Origin: Anadara kagoshimensis
Taxonomy: Eukaryota; Mollusca; Bivalvia; Arcoida; Arcidae
NCBI GenBank assembly: GCA_021292105.1
Contig: CM037869.1
Span: 620,001-684,000, forward strand
Length of the DNA stretch: 64,000 bases
Direction: 5' to 3'
Translations under genes and position numbers: made by a program
Shown: in pieces, positions 27,433 to 54,379 of the stretch
Position numbering within the stretch: position 1 is the stretch's first letter
Layout of the letters: the number at the start of each line of letters is the position of its first letter
The notes under the pieces: generated by a model
Database searches by the model: none
The model's input: the letters and a program-made list of their open reading frames with translations, nothing else
What the model was told of the DNA's origin: nothing

Positions 27433-28395
27433 GGAGATATAGGTAGCGAGAGACCAGGAGATATAGCTAGCGAGAGACCAGGAGATATAGCTAGCCAGAG
27501 ACCAGGAGATATAGCTAGCGAGAGACCAGGAGATATAGCTAGCGAGAGACCAGGAGATATAGCTAGCGAGAGACCAGGAGATATAGCTAGCGAGAGACCA
27601 GGAGATATAGCTAGCGAGAGACCAGGAGATATAGCTAGAGAGAGACCAGGCGATATAGCTAGCGAGAGACCAGGAGATATAGCTAGCGAGAGACCAGGAG
27701 ATATAGCTAGCGAGAGACCAGGCGATATAGCTAGCGAGAGACCAGGAGATATAGCTAGCGAGAGACCAGGAGATATAGCTAGCGAGAGACCAGGAGATAT
27801 AGCTAGCGAGAGACCAGGAGATATAGCTAGAGAGAGACCAGGCGATATAGCTAGCGAGAGACCAGGAGATATAGCTAGCGAGAGACCAGGAGATATAGCT
27901 AGCGAGAGACCAGGAGATATAGCTAGCGAGAGACCAGGAGATATAGCTAGCGAGAGACCAGGAGATATAGCTAGCGAGAGACCAGGAGATATAGCTAGCG
28001 AGAGACCAGGAGATATAGCTAGCGAGAGACCAGGAGATATAGCTAGCGAGAGACCAGGAGATATAGCTAGCGAGAGACCAGGAGATATAGCTAGCGAGAG
28101 ACCAGGAGATATAGCTAGAGAGAGACCAGGCGATATAGCTAGCGAGAGACCAGGAGATATAGCTAGCGAGAGACCAGGAGATATAGCTAGCGAGAGACCA
28201 GGAGATATAGCTAGCGAGAGACCAGGAGATATAGCTAGCGAGAGACCAGGAGATATAGCTAGCGAGAGACCAGGAGATATAGCTAGCGAGAGACCAGGAG
28301 ATATAGCTAGAGAGAGACCAGGCGATATAGCTAGCGAGAGACCAGGAGATATAGCTAGCGAGAGACCAGGAGATATAGCTAGCGAGAGACCAGGA
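27433..28395. repeat. 24-bp satellite, about 40 copies, with higher-order structure
   Basis: The unit AGCGAGAGACCAGGAGATAT plus AGCT is 24 bp. Variant units (CTAGAGAGAGACCAGGCGAT) occur at 27635, 27827, 28115 and 28307, spaced 192, 288 and 192 bp, so a 480-bp block was duplicated. Because 24 is divisible by three, the minus strand stays open for 417 codons (27370-28623) and would encode repeated SWSLASYI. The frame starts in the adjacent SINE, so I regard it as a by-product. Confidence 0.95.
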
Positions 28396-30354: not shown

Positions 30355-30369
30355 AACTTGATTGAAGAC
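30355..30369 (+). repeat. 5' target-site duplication of the retrotransposon
   Basis: The 15-bp sequence AACTTGATTGAAGAC occurs here and again, exactly, at 37315-37329 after the poly(A). It defines the insertion boundaries. Confidence 0.9.
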
Positions 30370-30615
30370 TTCCGGTTCAGAAAGGTAGCATGTAGACGTG
30401 TCTCAAGCAGCTCCCGAAATTTTTTATCAAAAAGGCCTTAAAGCTATTCAAAAACGACAAAACTCAATAGGTATGATATATTGTGACTTTTTTCAATTCC
30501 ATTGCTGAACAATATTTGAATTCTGAACCGTTTTTTTAAGTATTTAGTCGTAATTTTCACTTAGAGTGCCACGCCCTTGTGTGTCGGTCAACCGGTCCTT
30601 TGTTTATTTACCATA

Positions 30616-31320
30616 ATGGCACAGAATATGGACACTTCCAACATTGATGGCAGCATTCAAAAAATGTTTGAAAACAAGGACATGAGTCAGTGCTTTGCTA
30701 TGCTATACGCTAAATTAGAAAAAGTCGAGGCGAGTGTTGATAGTGTCAAAGCTGACGTAAAGGCTCTGAGTGGCAGAGTGGATAATCTGGAAAGTTACAG
30801 GGGCTTTGTGGAAGATTCGCTAACCACAATAAATGAAAAAACTGTTCCAGCTTTGGAGGAAACAATAAACGGTGAGTCCAGGGAAAGACTGAAACTCGAG
30901 TTGTGGGGACGAAAGTGGAATCTCGTCATAAGGGGGGTACCATGTGAAACAAATGAACGCCCCCGTGTTACAGACGGAAAAGTGCGTGATTTCTTAAAAG
31001 AAGTACTGCAATTGCCTGCGCAAACTGTTGATAATATACAATTTCAGGCGGTACACAGGTTACCTAGTGGTGCCGAATCCAAAAAGAATATTATTGTTCG
31101 GTTCAATAACCTAATTGAGAGAGATGAGGTGTTGTATTTGGCAACAAAATTAAAACCTGGTTCAGGATATGGCATAAGTCCCGATCTTCCACCAGAAATT
31201 AGCAAAATGAGATCATCCCTTCTACATGAACGCGCACAGATGCAGCCAAATGTTAAACGCAAAACAAAATTAGTATACTTAAAAGAATATCCCTTTGTGC
31301 GAATCTGGACCAAACGGTAA
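30616..31320 (+). CDS. Retrotransposon ORF1 protein (L1-type, coiled coil plus RRM)
   Basis: 234 residues from an ATG in the context ATAATGG; the frame is open a little further upstream, but this is the first ATG. Residues 30-90 are predicted coiled coil by heptad pattern (LYAKLEKVEASVDSVKADV). Residues 105-190 resemble the L1 ORF1 RNA-recognition domain (LWGRKWNLVIRGVP, VHRLPSGAESKKNIIVRF). Residues 190-232 resemble the small C-terminal domain (MRSSLLHERAQMQPNVKRKT). L1 ORF1 proteins form trimers, bind the element's RNA and act as nucleic-acid chaperones. The stop codon overlaps a donor-like sequence (ACG|GTAAAG at 31317), so the message might be spliced onward. Confidence 0.8.
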   Translation: MAQNMDTSNIDGSIQKMFENKDMSQCFAMLYAKLEKVEASVDSVKADVKALSGRVDNLESYRGFVEDSLTTINEKTVPALEETINGESRERLKLELWGRKWNLVIRGVPCETNERPRVTDGKVRDFLKEVLQLPAQTVDNIQFQAVHRLPSGAESKKNIIVRFNNLIERDEVLYLATKLKPGSGYGISPDLPPEISKMRSSLLHERAQMQPNVKRKTKLVYLKEYPFVRIWTKR

Positions 31321-31929
31321 AGATACAATGTATTATATGTACTTTTATACCACCCCTATTATATAGGGTAACGGACTCGCTCTATGGCGTAATTGACAAT
31401 TTAGGTCATATTTATGATTGCTGGCTAGTAGCTCTTATAGCTAGATGGTCGTTATACACAAGTGTGTAGATCTACATAATATACTGTCATGTGCTGTTTT
31501 TGAATGCATTATTTTAATAGAAATTCGAAGACAGCACATGACAATACTATTACTATGATTATTTTGTATAGATCGACCAGGGTGTGTTGGCGCACAGTTT
31601 GCATATACACAAAATATCAATGTCTATCATTAATCAAAGTATTATATATTTAATATGTGTCTGCATATTAAAAAAAACAACTACAAACAGAAATAGCACG
31701 ATTTCTTGTGTTTTGTGTTTGATGAAACAGTGCGCTAATTTATCTCGGTCATAAAACATGCATAAAATGTATATCAAAACTAGTTATCTAAGCTGGTCTA
31801 ACATGTACCCGTCAATTCACACAGATATATTTATATGGTCAGTTTGCACAGTTTATATTAATATCTAATGTAGATAGGTGCCTCATATGTGTATCTTATA
31901 ATTAGGAAATTTATTTGAATTAATTTCAG
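31321..31929 (+). other. Spacer or candidate intron between ORF1 and the NADAR segment
   Basis: Non-coding, with a GTAAAG donor-like start at 31317 and a TTTGAATTAATTTCAG acceptor-like end at 31929. It contains a TGTCATGTGCT-type hairpin at 31485-31543. Joining exactly these sites would change the frame: the ORF1 side leaves two bases and the NADAR side needs one. Confidence 0.45.
31485..31543. repeat. Short hairpin element, TGTCATGTGCT family, inside the retrotransposon
   Basis: TGTCATGTGCTGTTTTTGAA pairs with TTCGAAGACAGCACATGACA around a TGCATTATTTTAATAG loop. The arm sequence differs from other copies, but the pairing is kept with G-U changes. Confidence 0.8.
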
Positions 31930-32360
31930 AAACAAATACCAAAGTTTATTTTAAAGGCGAAGATAATATTTTATCAAATTTTTTCCCGTGTTGTATAGAA
32001 TATAATGGCAGAAAATATACAAGTGCTGAACATTTATATCAGTTTATTAAAGCAAAGGAACATGGTAAAAATTATATCGCGGAACAAATATTTCTTTCAA
32101 AAAATGCTAGAGTAGCGAAAAAATTATCTAAATCAATAATTACAAATGTGTCTTGGCATAGCAAGAAAGAACAGGTCATGAAAACGATTATTTCTCTTAA
32201 ATTTGAACAGGTAGAATATTTTCGAAAAACACTTTTATCATCACAAATAAAAAGTAAAATACTAATTCACAATGTGTCAGATAAATTTTGGGGTTTTGTA
32301 AATGGCGATGGTAAAAATAAAATGGGATACTTACTAATGGAGTTGAGAGACACATTCTGA
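31930..32360 (+). CDS. NADAR (YbiA-like) domain encoded within the retrotransposon
   Basis: The frame is open from 31902; the most likely exon starts at 31930 after TTTCAG. About 142 residues follow, covering a whole NADAR domain. Visible are LSNFFPCCIEYNGRKYTSAE then HLYQFIKAKEHG, which is the conserved SNF(Y/F)P and (P/S)xEHxxQ block including the glutamate; a WHSKKEQVM segment; LKFEQ; and the C-terminal DKFWGFVNGDGKNKMGYLLM followed by ELR. Family knowledge: NADAR proteins act on ADP-ribose derivatives. YbiA/RibX cleave N-glycosidic bonds of riboflavin intermediates, and other NADARs reverse guanine ADP-ribosylation. There is no ATG at the start; the first in-frame Met is late, so splicing, fusion to ORF1 or a non-AUG start is needed. 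The frame has no stop or gap, which suggests selection on it within the element. Confidence 0.85.
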
Positions 32361-33395
32361 AACGTTCCAACTCATTATAACGACACACTACAACTACCAG
32401 TGTATACTACACTGTAGCTCCTAATTTAGGTCACAATGTAGGTCTAAATATAGGACGTCTGGACACCGGGGTTTCATACCCGTGATCTATTTACTATATA
32501 TACTGCGGGACTGTATCAAAATCATTGATGATCTCGGTACTTATTTTCAGAAATAAAAGATTACACAGGTATTTATTTATATACATTTTTTGTGCGTTTA
32601 AGTTATTGTGTGTAATTTTGTTAAAATCTCCAAAGCATGGAGATTTTTTTTCTTTTTTATTTATGTTGTGTTATCTTTTGAGTTAAGTTATTACATTTGA
32701 TATAAGTTTATGCTGCTCAAGGAATGGGCTAGCTTTTTCCTTTCAATTTTGAACACTGCAAAGACAAGTGCAAACGTGTCTTTTATGTCAGATGTCCGCT
32801 GTTTTTATCGGAGTCTAAAAAACTGTTACTGATTTTAATTTTTGAGTGGTGGATACATTCGGAAATAGTTTTGTCGTGTGCTATTTCCTTTTTGGGGTGG
32901 GGGTTACATGGGGGCTCGGAAGTATCACGTGACGCTATCGCACCTCTATGTAAAGAATGTTTAAGCACACTTGCGCGATACCGAGTAACACTTGTGTTTT
33001 GCAGTGCATGTATATACGTTGTCTACATATACATTGTCACGGGCACTGTTGATTCTGAGGTCTGATATTTGATTAAGCTACAATTATGTAACTCGCCCTA
33101 TATTTAGACTTTAGTGTTGGCGGTGCGCGTGGTTATTTAATTTTAAATGAATGTTAGAGGCAATGTGACCTAATAATTATAAGGCTTTTCAATATAAATG
33201 TCAAGAAAGTTAAGTCGGGAGAAAATGTATAGAAAATGTATTGGAAGTATTTAGAAAATCTTTGGGGAGGGTTTTGGCTGGGGAGGGATAATATATGTCA
33301 CAAAAATGATCCTGTATCTTGGTTAATTTTCCATACATTTGTCGATGCCACACTTACATTTAGAATATTTCTTATAGCCACAATACTTTTACGAT
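32361..33395 (+). other. Spacer between the NADAR segment and ORF2
   Basis: About 1 kb inside the retrotransposon without a supported gene. It may hold an intron, ORF2 leader or internal promoter; I see no decisive signal. Confidence 0.4.
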
Positions 33396-36300
33396 ATGAT
33401 GAATAATCTGTCTATTGGAAGTGTAAATTGCCGTGGGCTCTCTTCTGACAATGTTAAAAGAAGAGATATCTTCTCTCGTTGCAGAAGAGATTATGATATC
33501 ACATTTTTAATTGATAGTCATTGCAAAAAGGAATTAGAAGCTTATTGGAAAAATGAATGGGGATACAATGCCTATTTTAGCTCTCACACCAGTAACAGTC
33601 GAGGTGTAATTATCTTTTTAAAAATAATTTTGAATATAAAGTACATAGAAAGATAATTGATAATGATGGGAACTTTCTACTTTTAGATGTTACAATAGGA
33701 GGAAATAGGATGACCCTTGCCGCTATCTACGGGCCTAACGAAGACTGCCCACCTTTCTTTATAAATTTGCAAAAGCAACTAGAGATAATTGGAAATACGT
33801 CAATAATAATGGGTGGGGATTTTAACGTACCGTTGGAATATGATATAGATACATTAAATTACCTACACAAAAATAATATAAAATCTAACGAACAAATCCA
33901 TAATATGATTCATGAATTAGACTTAATAGATGTTTGGAGAGTTCTGTATCCAGATAGCACCCGATTTACTTGGAGGGGACCACATAGAAAACAATCAAGA
34001 CTAGATTACTTCCTAATTTCATCTAATCTTCAAATGTATGTCGTAGACTCAGATATTGGTACCAGTTACAGGTCAGATCATTCTCCAGTCAAAATTGAAC
34101 TAAAATTTATACAAAGTGAAAGGGGAAGGGGGGTATGGAAATTTAATAATAGCTTGCTACATGATGAAGAGTATATTAATATAATAAAAAACTGTATAAG
34201 GGAAACACTCGATCAATATATTATTAACGAAAAAGATGGAAAGGCACATTACTCGATAGATGATCAATTGTTATGGGATACCATTAAATTAATGATTAGA
34301 GGCAAAACTATTTCTTATTCTTCATATAAAAAAAGGGAAAGGGATAAAAAAGAAAAACAATTAGAAAATGATTTAACTCGTCTTTATTCACAAAATAAGT
34401 ATGATGAACTGAAAGATGATATAGGAAAAATTGAATCCGAGCTCAGGGAATTAAGAGAGAAAAAAATTAAAGGGGTAATTATGAGAGCAAAGGCAAAATG
34501 GAGTGTTGAAGGCGAAAAAAGTACAAAATATTTTTGCAACTTGGAAAAAAGACATTTTACTGAAAAAATTATCCCTAAAATAATTCTGGACGACGGTACG
34601 GAAATAACTGACCAAACTGACATATTGCTGAAACAGAAGGAATATTATGAAAATCTCTATAAAACAAAAAACAATACAATATCTCCTGAGCAAGAAAAAA
34701 CTTTCTTTGATCCAAAAAACCCTTTTTTAAATTTTTTAAATAAAGAAACATGTGACCCCCTGGAAGGAGAGCTTGAGTACAACGAATGTCTTAAAACACT
34801 TAAAAATATGAAAAATGGTAAATCTCCGGGCCTTGACGGTTTTACTGTAGAGTTCTATAAGTTCTTTTGGACGGATATTCATGAATATTTAATAAAAGCA
34901 TTAAACTGTGCTTATGAAAAAGGTTCTTATCTATTACCCAGAAACAAGGTATTATTACTTGTCTACCAAAGGAAGGAAAATCAAAATTTTACTTTAAAAA
35001 TTGGCGACCTATTACCCTACTTAATGTAGATTATAAAATAGCTTCTGCTTCAATTGCAAATAGAATAAAAACAGTTTTGGATGACTTGATTAGTGAAACC
35101 CAAACTGGCTTTTTAAAGAATAGATATATTGGCGAATGTTCCCGTTTAACTATGGACATACTTGAAAAAAGTGAAAATGAAAAAATATCAGGGATTTTGT
35201 TGCTTTTAGACTTTGAAAAAGCATTTGACTCGATTGAATGGTCTTTTATCAAACAAACATTACGTTTCTTCGGTTTTGGAAACTCCATCATATGCTGGTT
35301 TGAAACGTTTTATAATGGGGCAGTCAGTCTTGTTCAAAACAATGGTTACATTTCAAACTTTTTCTCTGTTGAACGTGGTGTGCGGCAGGGTGATCCTCTA
35401 TCTCCCTATCTTTTTATACTATGTGTAGAATTGTTGAGTGCTGCTGTTAAAAATGATCCCAATATAAAAGGTATAACTTTGAATGGATCAGAGTATCTGA
35501 TTAGTCAGTACGCTGACGACACATCGCTTACATTAGACGATAATGAACATTCTTTAAATAGAGCTTTGTTCCTAATTGAAGATTTCGCCGACTGTTCTGG
35601 TCTGAGAGCTAATTTTGATAAAACTGAGGCTATATGGTTTGGATCAAAAAGAGGGTTTAAAGAAAAATATAACACTGATATACCAATTTCTTGGAATTTT
35701 GAAGGGAAATTTAAATTGTTAGGAATAAAATATAATCTCAGTAGGGAAGGGGGAGACTTTTATTTAGAAAATTACACTGAAAAAATCAATTCTTTCAAAA
35801 AACTTTTGAACGATTGGTCCTTTAGAAATTTATCACTATTAGGCAAAATAACTGTAGTAAAAACCCTAGCTATGCCAATACTTATACAGATATTAACAGT
35901 CCTACCTGATCCACCAGAATATCTAGTGAAAGACGTTGAAACATCCATTTTTAGATTTATTTGGAATGGAAAGGGAGAAAAGGTAAAAAGAAACATCATG
36001 TTTAGCGATTACAGCTATGGTGGGTTGAGGGTACCTCATATTAGATCTTTTGTTCGCGCACTAAAAATATCATGGTTGAAGAAACTTATTGACCCACTCA
36101 TAGGTTCAGCATGGAAACGTCTCTTACTGGATGATCTGGAGGATGTAGGTGGCGACAAGTTCTTAATGCTAAATGAACAAAGTTATAATATTTGTATAGG
36201 CAAATTCAATGTGTTCTGGCAACATGTATTCACAAGTTGGGCATCTATACAAAAACAAGGAACCGCAAATACTTGTGAAATAGTATCTCAATCCCTGTGG

Positions 36301-37180
36301 TTTAACCCACACATTAACATTGGTAACAAACATGTCTTCTATACGGCTTGGTGTGAAAAGGGTATATTCTTCATAAAAGACCTAATAGATGATACAGGTT
36401 CTTTCTTGGCTATTGCCGACTTGATGAAAAAATATGATTTGAAAGTAAATTTTCTAGAATATTATAGCTTAATCAGAGCAATTCCTAAGCAATGGAAAAG
36501 TATCATAAAAAACGCATGTCCAATACCGCAGGTACACCATCCGCTAATACAATCATTAAAAACTTCGGAAAATATAGCAAAACATTTCTACCGTCTTTTT
36601 ATAAACAAAATATACCAAAAGCCTAATTCTCAAGAAAGGTGGAGAGTTAAACTGAATATAGAGTTTACAGATGAACATTGGAATAATATATATTACACCA
36701 TTTAAAATAACAGAAGATACAAAACTAAGGTCATTTCAATTCAAACTCAACCACGGTATTTACTTTACAAACATCAAACTTATGCAAAGTAAATTATACG
36801 AAACTGAATTGTGTACATTTTGTTCAGAAACGAAGGAAACAATTACTCATCTCTTTATTGAATGTTCATGTGTAAAGTCTATATGGTATCAACTCTTAGA
36901 AGACATTAGATTACAAACCAATATAAAAATTGAAAATACCACTGAAAATCTGCTATTTGGTATAAAAAGTAATGACTCTAATTTAAATGTTGTAAACTTA
37001 TGTTTACTTATAGCAAAATATTATATCCATACATGCAGAATGAAAAATATACAACCTTCTTACCAAGCCTGTATAGAAACTATAAGATTTTATCGAAAAA
37101 TAGAACTTTTTTCTTTGTATATGCATACCCCGGCAAAAGCACAACTTATTAAGCAAAAGTGGCAATTTTTACGATTATAA
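33396..37180 (+). pseudogene. Retrotransposon ORF2: AP-type endonuclease, reverse transcriptase, C-terminal zinc-knuckle-like motif; three frame breaks
   Basis: The protein starts MMNNLSIGSVNCRGL at 33396. The endonuclease shows LIDSH in place of the usual QETH block, then MGGDFNVPL, SRLDYFLIS and SDHSPVKIEL. Reverse-transcriptase blocks are GKSPGLDGFTVEFYKFFW, LLLLDFEKAFDSIEW, GVRQGDPLSPYLF and the catalytic QYADDTSLTL. The C-terminus has CTFCSETKETITHLFIEC, a CxxC...HxxxxC motif typical of L1/Tx1 elements. The enzyme would nick target DNA and prime reverse transcription there. The frame breaks near 33620 (an A-rich run), 34945 and 36700, each by about one base, so this copy cannot make the full protein unless these are assembly errors. 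The pieces are otherwise contiguous and stop-free. Confidence 0.85.
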
Positions 37181-37314
37181 TATACATGTTTTTCATATGA
37201 TAATATTTGCATCTATGTTAAGAAAATGTACGTGTATATGTGATTTGGATTTGAAATGTATATCTGTATCTGATTTATTATGGATCGAATAAAAACTTTA
37301 CAAGACAAAAAAAA
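37181..37314 (+). other. 3' UTR and poly(A) of the retrotransposon
   Basis: A short 3' UTR with GAATAAAAACTTTACAAGAC and then about ten A, merging into the target-site duplication. Confidence 0.75.
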
Positions 37315-37329
37315 AACTTGATTGAAGAC
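37315..37329 (+). repeat. 3' target-site duplication of the retrotransposon
   Basis: Exact copy of 30355-30369. Confidence 0.9.
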
Positions 37330-49407: not shown

Positions 49408-51953
49408 ATATGTTTAACGACTATAATGTAATATGTGGCGTACCACGACAACATTATGTCTATGTACTTTAGACATATGTTTAACGACTATAATACAATA
49501 TGTGGCGTACCACGACAACATTATGTCTATGTACTTTAGACATATGTTTAACGACTATAATACAATATGTGGCGTACCACGACAACATTATGTCTATGTA
49601 CTTTAGATATATGTTTAACGACTATAATACAATATGTGGCGTACCACGACAACATTATGTCTATGTACTTTAGATATATGTTTAACGACTATAATACAAT
49701 ATGTGGCGTACCACGACAACATTATGTCTATGTACTTTAGATATATGTTTAACGACTATAATGTAATATGTGGCGTACCACGACAACATTATGTCTATGT
49801 ACTTTAGATATATGTTTAACGACTATAATGTAATATATGGCGTACCACGACAACATTATGTCTATGTACTTTAGATATATGTTTAACGACTATAATACAA
49901 TATGTGGCGTACCACGACAACATTATGTCTATGTACTTTAGATATATGTTTAACGACTATAATGTAATATGTGGCGTACCACGACAACATTATGTCTATG
50001 TACTTTAGATATATGTTTAACGACTATAATGTAATATGTGGCGTACCACGACAACATTATGTCTATGTACTTTAGATATAGTGTTTAACGAGTATAATGT
50101 AATATGTGGCGTACCACGACAACATTATGTCTATGTACTTTAGATATATGTTTAACAACTATAATGTAATATGTGGCGTACCACGACAACATTATGTCTA
50201 TGTACTTTAGACATATGTTTAACAACTATAATGTAATATGTGGCGTACCACGACAACATTATGTCTATGTACTTTAGACATATGTTTAACGACTATAATG
50301 TAATATGTGGCGTACCACGACAACATTATGTCTATGTACTTTAGACATATGTTTAACGACTATAATGTAATATGTGGCGTACCACGACAACATTATGTCT
50401 ATGTACTTTAGATATATGTTTAACGACTATAATGTAATATGTGGCGTACCACGACAACATTATGTCTATGTACTTTAGATATATGTTTAACAACTATAAT
50501 GTAATATGTGGCGTACCACGACAACATTATGTCTATGTACTTTAGACATATGTTTAACAACTATAATGTAATATGTGGCGTACCACGACAACATTATGTC
50601 TATGTACTTTAGACATATGTTTAACGACTATAATGTAATATGTGGCGTACCACGACAACATTATGTCTATGTACTTTAGACATATGTTTAACGACTATAA
50701 TGTAATATGTGGCGTACCACGACAACATTATGTCTATGTACTTTAGATATATGTTTAACGACTATAATGTAATATGTGGCGTACCACGACAACATTATGT
50801 CTATGTACTTTAGATATATGTTTAACAACTATAATGTAATATGTGGCGTACCACGACAACATTATATGTATGTAGTTTAGACATATATTTAACGACTATA
50901 ATACAATATGTGGCGTACTACGACAACATTATATCTATGTAGTTTAGACATATATTTAACGACTATAATACAATATGTGGCGTACCACGACAACATTATA
51001 TCTATGTACTTTAGACATATGTTTAACGACTATAATACAATATGTGGCGTACCACGACAACATTATATCTATATACTTTAGACATATGTTTAACGACTAT
51101 AATACAATATGTGGCGTACCACGACAACATTATATCTATATACTTTAGACATATGTTTAACGACTATAATACAATATGTGGCGTACCACGACAACATTAT
51201 ATCTATGTACTTTAGATATATATTTAACGACTATAATACAATATGTGGCGTACCACGACAACATTATGTCTATGTACTTTAGACATATGTTTAACGACTA
51301 TAATACAATATGTGGCGTACCACGACAACATTATGTCTATGTACTTTAGACATATGTTTAACGACTATAATACAATATGTGGCGTACCACGACAACATTA
51401 TGTCTATGTACTTTAGACATATGTTTAACGACTATAATACAATATGTGGCGTACCACGACAACATTATGTCTATGTACTTTAGATATATGTTTAACGACT
51501 ATAATACAATATGTGGCGTACCACGACAACATTATGTCTATGTACTTTAGATATATGTTTAACGAGTATAATGTAATATGTGGCGTACCACGACAACATT
51601 ATGTCTATGTACTTTAGATATATGTTTAACGACTATAATGTAATATGTGGCGTACCACGACAACATTATGTCTATGTACTTTAGATATATGTTTAACGAC
51701 TATAATACAATATGTGGCGTACCACGACAACATTATGTCTATGTACTTTAGATATATGTTTAACGACTATAATGTAATATGTGGCGTACCACGACAACAT
51801 TATGTCTATGTACTTTAGACATATGTTTAACGAGTATAATGTAATATGTGGCGTACCACGACAACATTATGTCTATGTACTTTAGATATATGTTTAACGA
51901 CTATAATGTAATATGTGGCGTACCACGACAACATTATGTCTATGTACTTTAGA
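49408..51953. repeat. 67-bp satellite, about 38 copies
   Basis: The unit is 67 bp: ATATGTTTAACGACTATAAT, GTAATATGTGGCGTACCACG, ACAACATTATGTCTATGTAC, TTTAGAC. Variant bases (ACAATATG/GTAATATG, TTTAGAC/TTTAGAT, AACAAC/AACGAC) appear in blocks, indicating segmental amplification: units 50140-50470 and 50480-50810 repeat the same variant order. GTGGCGTACCAC is a small palindrome in every unit. No coding potential. Confidence 0.95.
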
Positions 51954-54379
51954 TTGTTTTCTCGGTAAAATTTAAATTATGCATACAGAGAAACTTATTT
52001 GCACATCACTGCAGTATAATATGTTACACGTAACTTTATTAAAAGTTCAGTTCCTGTTTGCCTTATTTAGCGTTTGCCCACAATGTTGTATGAAGTGTGT
52101 ATAAGTAAACTATACTATTTGAACATACCCGGCATGGTCTTGTGGTACCTTAACAAGGGTGTAGACAGGAACCAATTATAACCGTGGCAAAATTCAAATA
52201 AGCGCCAAAGTCGCTTTAAATCTATCTTGGTTAATTGTTAATTTGCAAAATAGACCAAGTCATGTACTTCATTAGGTGGGGATAACCGATTGGTACTGTT
52301 TCTGGATTCAACAGGATTGAAGCTAAGTTTCTACTAGATCATGGATAAACACCTTGATGAGTGTGTTCAAAATACATGTTATTGTAAACTATTAGTTTTA
52401 TAGTTTTTTTATAAATTCGTCTTTTCCTTCTAGCAGTTTATTGTAGTACATAGAGCAGAGTAAGCGCAGATGTTTTATGATTTTTATTTAATTAAAACAT
52501 TTAAAACAACACTTTAACGTCCTGCCATGATGCTTTAAGGCTTGTTTGGAAAAAGCAGCACATGTACATGTGAACACGCACACAATTAGAACAGTCTCAC
52601 GTTTGCTATTCATATGAGATAACCTCTGATTATAGTATATAACGTGATCAAAATAAATAAATTATTGCAAATGTACGAAATAATGTTTCACAATTTCAAA
52701 AAAAACTTTTTTATATGTCACCTTAAGGCCTCCGTACTGATACTTATATTGTTGCTATCTTATCTATTTTATTATTTTTAATTTTAACACAAAATGTATG
52801 TATTTAAAAATCGCCAATGAGTTTACTATGGGTTTACTTGGTCTGCAAATACGGTGCTTTAAAATGCTGAATTGCAAAACTTACAACAGCGATATAAACC
52901 TATTGAACTTTGTGTTTAGTTGACTTTGATTGGTATAGACATATTTAGAAACAACAAACTTGTTATGTGACGGCTGATCAGTTCTTGTTCATCTGAGGTA
53001 ATCAGACTGACAGACAGATCAAGATAATTGAGTTTGTTACAAAGTTTTCTTCATGTTTAAATTTAATTAAGAGTCGAGAATAATTTAGCACGCATTGGTA
53101 TTGGGACAATTTATGTTACAAATTTAATATTTGTTATATCACGTATTTCGTAACCAAACATTTTAATCAATTTTAAATACAATATTGAAGTATTGTTATC
53201 AGTGAAGATCTCTTGCCTTCAATCAATATTGAACACTGAATCTATCATCATATAGTATTAGAAACATCCGGAAAATACCAGTCTTTCCTTTTTACTTCCC
53301 ACTTACTAAATAGTATTGTTGTAGGCTTTTTGGCGCTGCAAATGTTATAAAGATTTCGAAACGTAGTGGGAGATTTATTTTTACTTGCCATATTCTTATC
53401 CTTCTTTCCTCAAAAATTGTTTCACCAAATTATTTCTCCAAGTTGGCATAACTTTTGTGTGAACATACATCTATTGCCAATAATTAAGATGCACTCTGAT
53501 TGGACTATGTTAGACATGGTTGGATCATATTCAACCAATCAGAACTTTTTTCAAAAAACCACGAGGACGCAACCAAACACAACTTAAAATGGAATAATTA
53601 ACATAGATATTGTAATGTTTTGGACTCTAAATATCAATTTTCAATTGAGGAAAGACTTGGCATCTTTATGCGTTTTACCATATGAATTGCGTCATTTCAC
53701 AAGAGAATTTTGGCTGACATTTAAAACTGTTCAGTAAAGCTCATTGCATAACAACAAAAGCATTTATATGCAGGATTCGCCAATTTAATTTAGTGATTGA
53801 TGTAAGTTTATATTGATTTTGACGGAATTAAAATTTTATCTGCAACAAAACACTTGTCTCGAGCTTACAAATTAGAAAATTATTTTCATGGGTCGTTCAT
53901 AATATTGGAGAAATGAGAAAAGAGAATGAAAAAAGTAATTAAACCACTTACAAAAATAGGGGCATTACGACATTTAAATGAAGTTAATTTTAGGTGACAA
54001 TATGTTTTCATTAATTAAAAAATTTAAAGAGTTCAAGAGATAGTAGCAAAGTTTCATATCTGAAAGGGAGTGTCTATTTCCATTGATAAAGAAAATTAAT
54101 TATGAAGTTGTTAGTTAACTAAATATTCTTTTCAAGAACAAAATATTGAATTTGGTACCAATATTTCAGGTAAGAGCCTTTTACTCTAAATTTATAGAGA
54201 CAATTCCGATACAGATCACTTACTGGTATAACGTACAGCTCGCTATGTATCATACGAGAATGAACATTCTTGACCAGAAAATCGCCAAATAGTTTGGTCA
54301 GATGGGTGAGAACAGAATACAGAAAATCTAGTTTAGCCAAATAGTTGGATAGAAAATTGCTAAGATAGTTCAGACCGTT

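Follow-up and report, generated by a model that had tools for sequence, protein, structure and literature searches.

A NADAR domain carried by L1/Tx1-like retrotransposons of the ark clam Anadara kagoshimensis and its predicted splice linkage to ORF1

The DNA analysed here, referred to as the window, is a stretch of 64,000 nucleotides from the bivalve Anadara kagoshimensis (C13:620001-684000 of a 1.115-Gb genome in 36 contigs, of which C1-C19 measure 37-76 Mb each). It holds a LINE of a family that we designate A, with the following features:

30355..30369, no strand assigned: left target-site duplication AACTTGATTGAAGAC, a 15-bp exact repeat
30370..37314, plus strand: LINE element of family A, ~6.9 kb, bounded by the target-site duplications, its 3' end being a short A run
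30616..31320, plus strand: ORF1, 234 aa, whose family profile matches human L1 ORF1p
30616..30871, plus strand: predicted exon 1, codons 1-85 of ORF1 and one further base, the coiled-coil part
30872..31929, plus strand: predicted intron of 1058 bases, GTGAGT...TTTCAG, whose removal would take out the ORF1 RNA-binding part
30872..30877, plus strand: predicted splice donor GTGAGT, phase 1
31485..31543, no strand assigned: hairpin of ~59 bp with arms of ~20 bp, MITE-like, within the predicted intron
31924..31929, plus strand: predicted splice acceptor TTTCAG, phase 1
31930..32360, plus strand: NADAR exon including the stop codon
32028-32030 and 32049-32051, plus strand, within the NADAR exon: codons of the residues aligned with P. 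nicotianae NADAR E43 and K50
32361..33395, plus strand: non-coding spacer from NADAR to ORF2
33396..37180, plus strand: ORF2 with endonuclease, reverse transcriptase and zf-RVT, frame-shifted in the window copy
37315..37329, no strand assigned: right target-site duplication AACTTGATTGAAGAC, a 15-bp exact repeat

The element is an L1/Tx1-type LINE by its L1-like ORF1, its ORF2 with endonuclease and reverse transcriptase (RT), its target-site duplications and its A-rich end, the RT having been compared with the nearest solved RTs only: The profile built from the ORF1 family aligns with human L1 ORF1p (2ykp/2yko) across the end of the coiled coil and the domain that follows (E 2e-4), the ORF2 pieces match Exo_endo_phos_2, RVT_1 and zf-RVT of Pfam, and the best solved match of the RT is human L1 ORF2p (E 1e-36). 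Frame shifts interrupt ORF2 in the window copy, which is therefore probably non-autonomous. The original prediction had placed a NADAR-type domain between ORF1 and ORF2 and inside exact 15-bp target-site duplications, which agrees with the coordinates listed above. The span that it had given for the domain (31902..32360) stands as far as the domain itself is concerned; its first part, 31902-31929, probably belongs to the 3' end of an intron rather than to coding sequence, because no ATG precedes the domain in this frame. The hairpin within the predicted intron is absent from copy L020 and is probably a small MITE-like insert; a ~60-bp inversion once suspected in this intron proved to be a small inverted-repeat insert instead. 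Elsewhere in the window, 40 copies of a 24-bp unit (27433-28395) keep a 417-codon frame open on the minus strand, and 38 copies of a 67-bp unit with 97% matches occupy 49408-51954.

The frame at 31902-32360 matches the NADAR profile PF08719 with an E-value of 8.6e-22 and 78.6 bits, the curated cut-off being 35.1. At E <= 0.001 it has two solved relatives only, E. coli YbiA (2b3w, 4e-16) and a Phytophthora NADAR (8bau, 4.6e-8), and a Foldseek search with its AF2 model (mean pLDDT 88.0, pTM 0.85) returned at the same threshold these two structures (5.0e-6 and 3.7e-5, respectively) and no others. Profile, solved relatives and modelled fold thus bear out the NADAR-type assignment, and we regard it as practically certain that the domain is a real NADAR. 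Its active site contains the Glu/Lys pair: E35 and K42 align with E43 and K50 of the P. nicotianae enzyme and are invariant in a 26-row alignment. In the E. coli C7 NADAR, changes to the counterparts of these two residues abolish rescue from DarT1; the lysine (K95) is needed for hydrolysis, and replacement of the glutamate by Gln inactivates the enzyme while replacement by Ala has a minor effect in vitro, with neither variant rescuing from DarT1 (PMC11543638). The position of P. nicotianae E125, which is a Glu in YbiA-type NADARs, is taken in the window by Ile114, followed by His115, so that this feature of the YbiA subfamily is missing; a His-Asn in this region recurs in most LINE NADARs aligned. 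Features of the BC4488 and DarT1-associated NADARs are missing as well: There is no Asp at the E125 position, and the neighbouring genes are ORF1 and ORF2 with no DarT gene among them. The replacement of the YbiA-type Glu by Ile114/His115 makes the activity of the window NADAR less than certain. Phage NADARs are said to bear a His at the E125 position and to retain activity (PMC11125620, in the portion available). We consider the window NADAR to be probably an active hydrolase.

The domain is no peculiarity of the window copy. At least 150 NADAR matches exist in the genome (PF08719, best 150 of 341 candidates scored, all 150 over the cut-off), and they also adjoin ORF1 types other than that of family A. 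We read 16 copies of family A including the window, a sample that is not random, as nine were chosen via NADAR matches and six via ORF2 matches without a listed NADAR. NADAR is intact in 10 of these 16 copies (the window, L009-L016 and L020), its protein being identical to that of the window in L009-L015, 99.3% identical in L016 and 98.6% in L020. The target-site duplications differ among the eight near-full-length copies (the window and L009-L015) and measure 11-17 bp; for L016 only 8 bp were found, and for L020 no 3' end. NADAR is part of the mobile element, as the original prediction had stated, and lies between ORF1 and ORF2 in many copies, a point on which that prediction had asked for a check. 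A clean empty site, that is, a family-A element without NADAR, had been named as a sign of one-off capture, and none was seen among the 16 copies. The six copies without intact NADAR were rejected as empty sites: L029 has an internal deletion in NADAR, the deletion in L034 starts in ORF1 and extends past NADAR, and L030-L033 (4 of 16) are 5'-truncated.

The same relation emerges when the genome is entered through the neighbouring frames. Sixteen ORF2 rows span no fewer than 898 of the 1005 query bases at >= 97%; ten of them belong to copies with intact NADAR, one to L029 and four to L030-L033, and the sixteenth (C18:9949921) lies outside the copies read. For ORF1, we took the longest and strongest 63 of 152 listed rows, omitting short pieces and rows weaker than ~1e-40. 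A NADAR match from the best 150 of 341 lies within 3 kb downstream on the same strand in 46 of the 63 and in 27 of the 31 that are full-length and stop-free. Two of the remaining four full-length frames, L029 and L052, bear NADAR remnants; the others lie at C11:16594776 and C3:63854488. We hold with very high confidence that NADAR is a standing part of the element. As a separate observation, five similar 5'-end fragments of family-A ORF2 are spread over 0.2 Mb at C1 35.63-35.83 Mb, as if duplicated together with the region.

We then asked how the domain is linked to ORF1. The window contains ACG|GTGAGT inside ORF1 and TTTCAG|AA at the edge of NADAR, both in phase 1, and joining the two yields an open protein of 228 residues, in which ORF1 residues 1-85 are followed by NADAR. 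The same layout is found in L005 (A2), L007/L008 (E), L036/L048 (D), L040 (I), L042 (K), L045 (K2), L051 (C) and L052 (N), the families A, A2, B, C, D, E, I, K, K2 and N being our own grouping. Donors in these A-type families read (A/C)AG|GTGAG, the acceptors are in phase and most are pyrimidine-rich, and the predicted introns span 1.06-1.30 kb; upstream of the donor, ORF1 is only partly open in copies L036, L042 and L045, and L006 has a frame break. Family B (L022-L028) carries a phase-1 CAAG|GTAAAT elsewhere in its own coiled coil, together with a phase-1 acceptor and a predicted intron of 1.34 kb. L047, L050 and L003/L004 show acceptor-like sites in phase, but a donor or a legible part of ORF1 is missing there.

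The conservation of the donor was analysed in a codon alignment of the nine A-type families that are readable there (one row each; identity 38-70%, mean 49%; 90 ungapped codon columns). All nine share the phase-1 donor G|GTGAG at one homologous ORF1 codon pair, and GGTGAG at this place is the sole invariant 6-mer of 260 windows along the alignment. Nineteen columns show a single residue, two of them Trp; among the other 17, a single codon is kept only by the Gly (GGT) and the Glu (GAG) of the donor. As the nine families are related, these counts are not independent. At the NADAR edge, 10 of 10 families have a YAG that is in phase and preceded by >= 55% pyrimidine, where the remaining positions of these introns lead one to expect 0.92; with the limit raised to >= 70%, the figures are 8 of 10 and 0.09. 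Because the thresholds were set post hoc, the window itself has 55% and the families are related, this enrichment is descriptive only. The donor precedes by ~16 residues the strand RKWNLVIRG, which aligns with NLRLIGV of human L1 ORF1p, and the coiled-coil boundary of ORF1 was placed by the profile match to the same protein. The predicted product would consist of the ORF1 coiled coil with NADAR in place of the RNA-binding part.

Among 25 database relatives of ORF1, 19 of which were aligned, the donor-column Gly is found in three (P0001, P0002, P0007) and Gly-Glu in two (P0001, P0002), and these two resemble by eye L045 and L050, both of which bear NADAR in the present genome. The C-terminal half of L050 ORF1 is by eye nearly letter-for-letter that of P0002, a protein from a short contig that may stem from the same or a near species. 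The ORF1s without NADAR that could serve as controls, L053 and L054, are too distant and too few to decide anything, and the coiled coil of L054 has a weak same-phase GTGAG. L052 had been selected because no NADAR was listed for its ORF1, but it proved to contain a remnant of the domain together with the shared donor.

Genomic copies of a spliced RNA were not encountered: There is no continuous match to the window fusion protein among the best 150 of 540 candidates scored, and no genome match with <= 3 mismatches to the exon-exon junction patterns of families A, C and E. As a spliced RNA would retain ORF2, frequent splicing might be expected to leave intron-less copies behind; that these searches met none means that splicing occurs rarely or not at all, or that its product does not serve as a template. 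Likewise, none of 42 database matches of the fusion alignment is a coiled coil-NADAR fusion, as judged by listed length and coverage (12 were read). An alternative in-frame splice from GTAAAG at the ORF1 stop to NADAR was rejected owing to mismatching phases. From the conserved signals at both ends of the intron, we infer that splicing from ORF1 to NADAR is likely to be real.

NADAR is also found in three other layouts in this genome. In L017, L018, L019, L021 and L049 (5 of 5), the ORF1 frame ends with CTA TGA CTA, and NADAR continues in the same frame. ORF1 of L018 matches GDSL/SGNH at E 6.9e-6, under the curated cut-off. The RT of this SGNH-type LINE is ~27% identical to that of the window and matches L1 ORF2p (2.9e-32) and R2 (2.2e-29) about equally, which points to another LINE lineage. 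UGA CUA is a readthrough consensus in human cells (PMC4359377, as far as its available text goes), and by analogy CTA TGA CTA is a candidate readthrough site, a possible second route to a minor ORF1-NADAR isoform. An ATGA stop-start overlap was rejected here, as NADAR shares the ORF1 frame after TGA CTA. In L037 and L043, NADAR and GDSL lie in a single frame, and in L038, L044 and L046, NADAR follows a stretch that we label zinc-knuckle-like (Pfam listed NADAR alone in L038). The oyster protein P0036 (Crassostrea virginica) groups with L038 at a support of 100/99. A 52-row tree unites the LINE NADARs with P0031, P0032 and P0036 (support 94/81) and keeps them separate from 32 database NADARs whose origin is not stated; it is too weak for counting captures. 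The viral contigs searched contain no ORF1 relative and one distant NADAR. In addition, NADAR occurs in very long open frames at L057:1-1599 and L058:1-1500 (1592 and 1598 aa), where Pro/Thr-rich repeats precede it in L057; both have no other Pfam domain in the part read and are possibly other mobile elements or host genes.

These findings suggest a mechanism that starts from two forms of one transcript. The unspliced RNA would be translated to normal ORF1p, with coiled coil and RNA-binding domains, and would also serve as the template. Splicing from G|GTGAG in ORF1 to the acceptor before NADAR would give rise to a minor isoform composed of coiled coil and NADAR. The trimeric state of ORF1p and the roles of its domains are taken here from human L1. 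As the trimerising coiled coil is common to both isoforms, the minor one would join ORF1p trimers and in this way carry an ADP-ribosyl hydrolase to the ribonucleoprotein particle (RNP) of the element; by this analogy, we rather favour mixed trimers. Within the RNP, NADAR would most likely act on ADP-ribosylated guanine in the RNA or nascent cDNA of the element, or on ADP-ribosylated parts of the RNP, removing the modification and thereby blunting a host ADP-ribosylation defence. That L1/Tx1-like families express NADAR as an alternative C-terminus of ORF1p, and so place a hydrolase in the RNP against such a defence, is our best explanation, to which we give an even chance.

Two other accounts concern the presence and the expression of the domain. 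NADAR might be a passenger, a host exon captured once and carried without benefit. Over eight pairs within a family or between sister families, from which L049 was excluded because its end is replaced, the pooled pN/pS is 0.34 (p 6e-4); the ratio is thus not the neutral one that had been proposed as a sign of one-off capture, and purifying selection is indicated. Substitutions within families are few, so that this estimate rests on ~49 changes, and single-pair ratios range from 0.16 to 1.02, two of the eight being 0.55 and 1.02. Compared with the next spacer, NADAR of family A has only mildly fewer substitutions (p 0.03); counts for the 5'UTR, ORF1 and ORF2 were inflated by rearranged copies and were not used. 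Indels also speak against a passenger, with 0 in NADAR of nine copies (3879 aligned bases) versus 107 in 33804 bases of ORF2, to which homopolymer errors may add, and NADAR is present in several LINE families (~40-50% identical in NADAR) as well as in the three other layouts; we consider this account highly improbable. Alternatively, NADAR could be made separately by internal or non-AUG initiation or by reinitiation, the splice-like motifs being a coincidence or the result of protein-level constraint. This would fit the lack of spliced genomic copies in the searches above, the in-frame AUG near the SNF motif in families K, K2 and E, the in-frame AUG further upstream in one family-B copy (L023) and in L003/L004, and the AUG 12 bases past the ORF1 stop of the SGNH-type LINE, where reinitiation is possible. 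Against it, no copy read in families A, A2, D, I, C and N has an in-frame AUG ahead of the SNF motif, and the donor codons do not vary even synonymously, although codon choice does vary at the 15 other degenerate residues that are invariant; moreover, only two of the aligned relatives have the Gly-Glu pair, and these resemble NADAR-bearing copies. Separate synthesis is unlikely in our estimation.

Two further accounts accept the isoform and differ on what it does. The spliced coiled coil, devoid of RNA binding, could act as a brake, poisoning ORF1p trimers and keeping copy number down, in which case NADAR would be a tail that stabilises it. The RNA-binding part is indeed missing from the predicted isoform, but the Glu/Lys pair is kept across families, and NADAR also occurs in the GDSL frame or behind UGA CUA, layouts in which no RNA-binding part is lost; a brake is thus very unlikely. 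NADAR in the RNP could instead act on proteins ADP-ribosylated by a PARP defence, or on soluble ADP-ribose or NAD-derived signals, rather than on nucleic-acid guanine. Both kinds of substrate have been proposed for viral NADARs (PMC9503650, portion available), and at the position of the charged catalytic residue the window NADAR departs from YbiA. Against this, every NADAR/YbiA protein tested in PMC11125620 hydrolysed guanosine-ADPr according to the available part of that paper, and the clam setting invoked by the original prediction has been reported, inasmuch as guanine-N2 DNA ADP-ribosylation activity is described for six edible clams in the accessible section of PMC11209040. We find protein or soluble substrates somewhat unlikely. 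A nucleic-acid substrate, processed as a counter-defence, is a possibility that we hold tentatively. In a wider form of the RNP-borne hydrolase model, bivalve LINEs would follow a gag/gag-pol-like economy, in which splicing, UGA CUA readthrough or direct fusion would supply a minor ORF1-hydrolase isoform and a few enzymes per RNP would strip ADP-ribose from element RNA or cDNA; we rate this form a little below an even chance.

Several known systems share single aspects of this arrangement. Unspliced ORF1 is related in sequence to human L1 ORF1p (2yko/2ykp) over the coiled-coil end and the next domain; to our knowledge, human L1 lacks both a NADAR domain and a comparable conserved donor inside ORF1. 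The closest case is that of oysters: Several Tx1 LINEs of Crassostrea gigas (Repbase entries) have NADAR in their ORF1 proteins, with a role given as unclear (PMC12477816, available portion). NADAR in oyster Tx1 ORF1 is thus already reported, and the clam element appears to resemble these LINEs in bearing a YbiA-family NADAR linked to ORF1; the accessible account mentions neither a splice-dependent linkage nor one through UGA CUA and does not survey the layouts. The splice architecture, the other LINE types and the published oyster and Ectocarpus cases were not part of the original prediction. Ectocarpus Gypsy elements, described in the same portion of PMC12477816, likewise have NADAR as a conserved retroelement domain, but they are LTR elements with a direct fusion at the Pol N-terminus, whereas the clam case is an ORF1-linked domain of a LINE. 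Animal RNA viruses with NADAR in the polyprotein (PMC9503650, in its available part) are also RNA-copying parasites of invertebrates with a NADAR of their own, in a viral polyprotein instead of a predicted alternative ORF1 isoform of a retrotransposon. DarT1-NADAR toxin-antitoxin pairs (PMC11543638) have in common with the clam element the NADAR fold and the Glu/Lys pair, but the latter is without a DarT partner and without the catalytic Asp. Judged by title, no further relevant paper on NADAR/YbiA in transposable elements was found beyond PMC12477816, nor, judged by title or the start of the abstract, a report of the ORF1-NADAR splice design, subscription journals and Repbase lying outside this search.

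The role of NADARs in animals is said to be unclear (PMC11125620, in the portion at hand). That a mobile element keeps NADAR in many families, tied to ORF1p by more than one layout, points to a concrete job for the domain, namely the shielding of the retrotransposition RNP from ADP-ribosylation. If the wider model is true, it would be, as far as we know, the first case in which alternative splicing of a LINE ORF1 is conserved, and would provide LINEs with a counter of their own to ADP-ribosylation of nucleic acids. The finding makes two questions testable: which purpose guanine ADP-ribosylation serves in clams, and whether LINEs use splicing to produce accessory isoforms.
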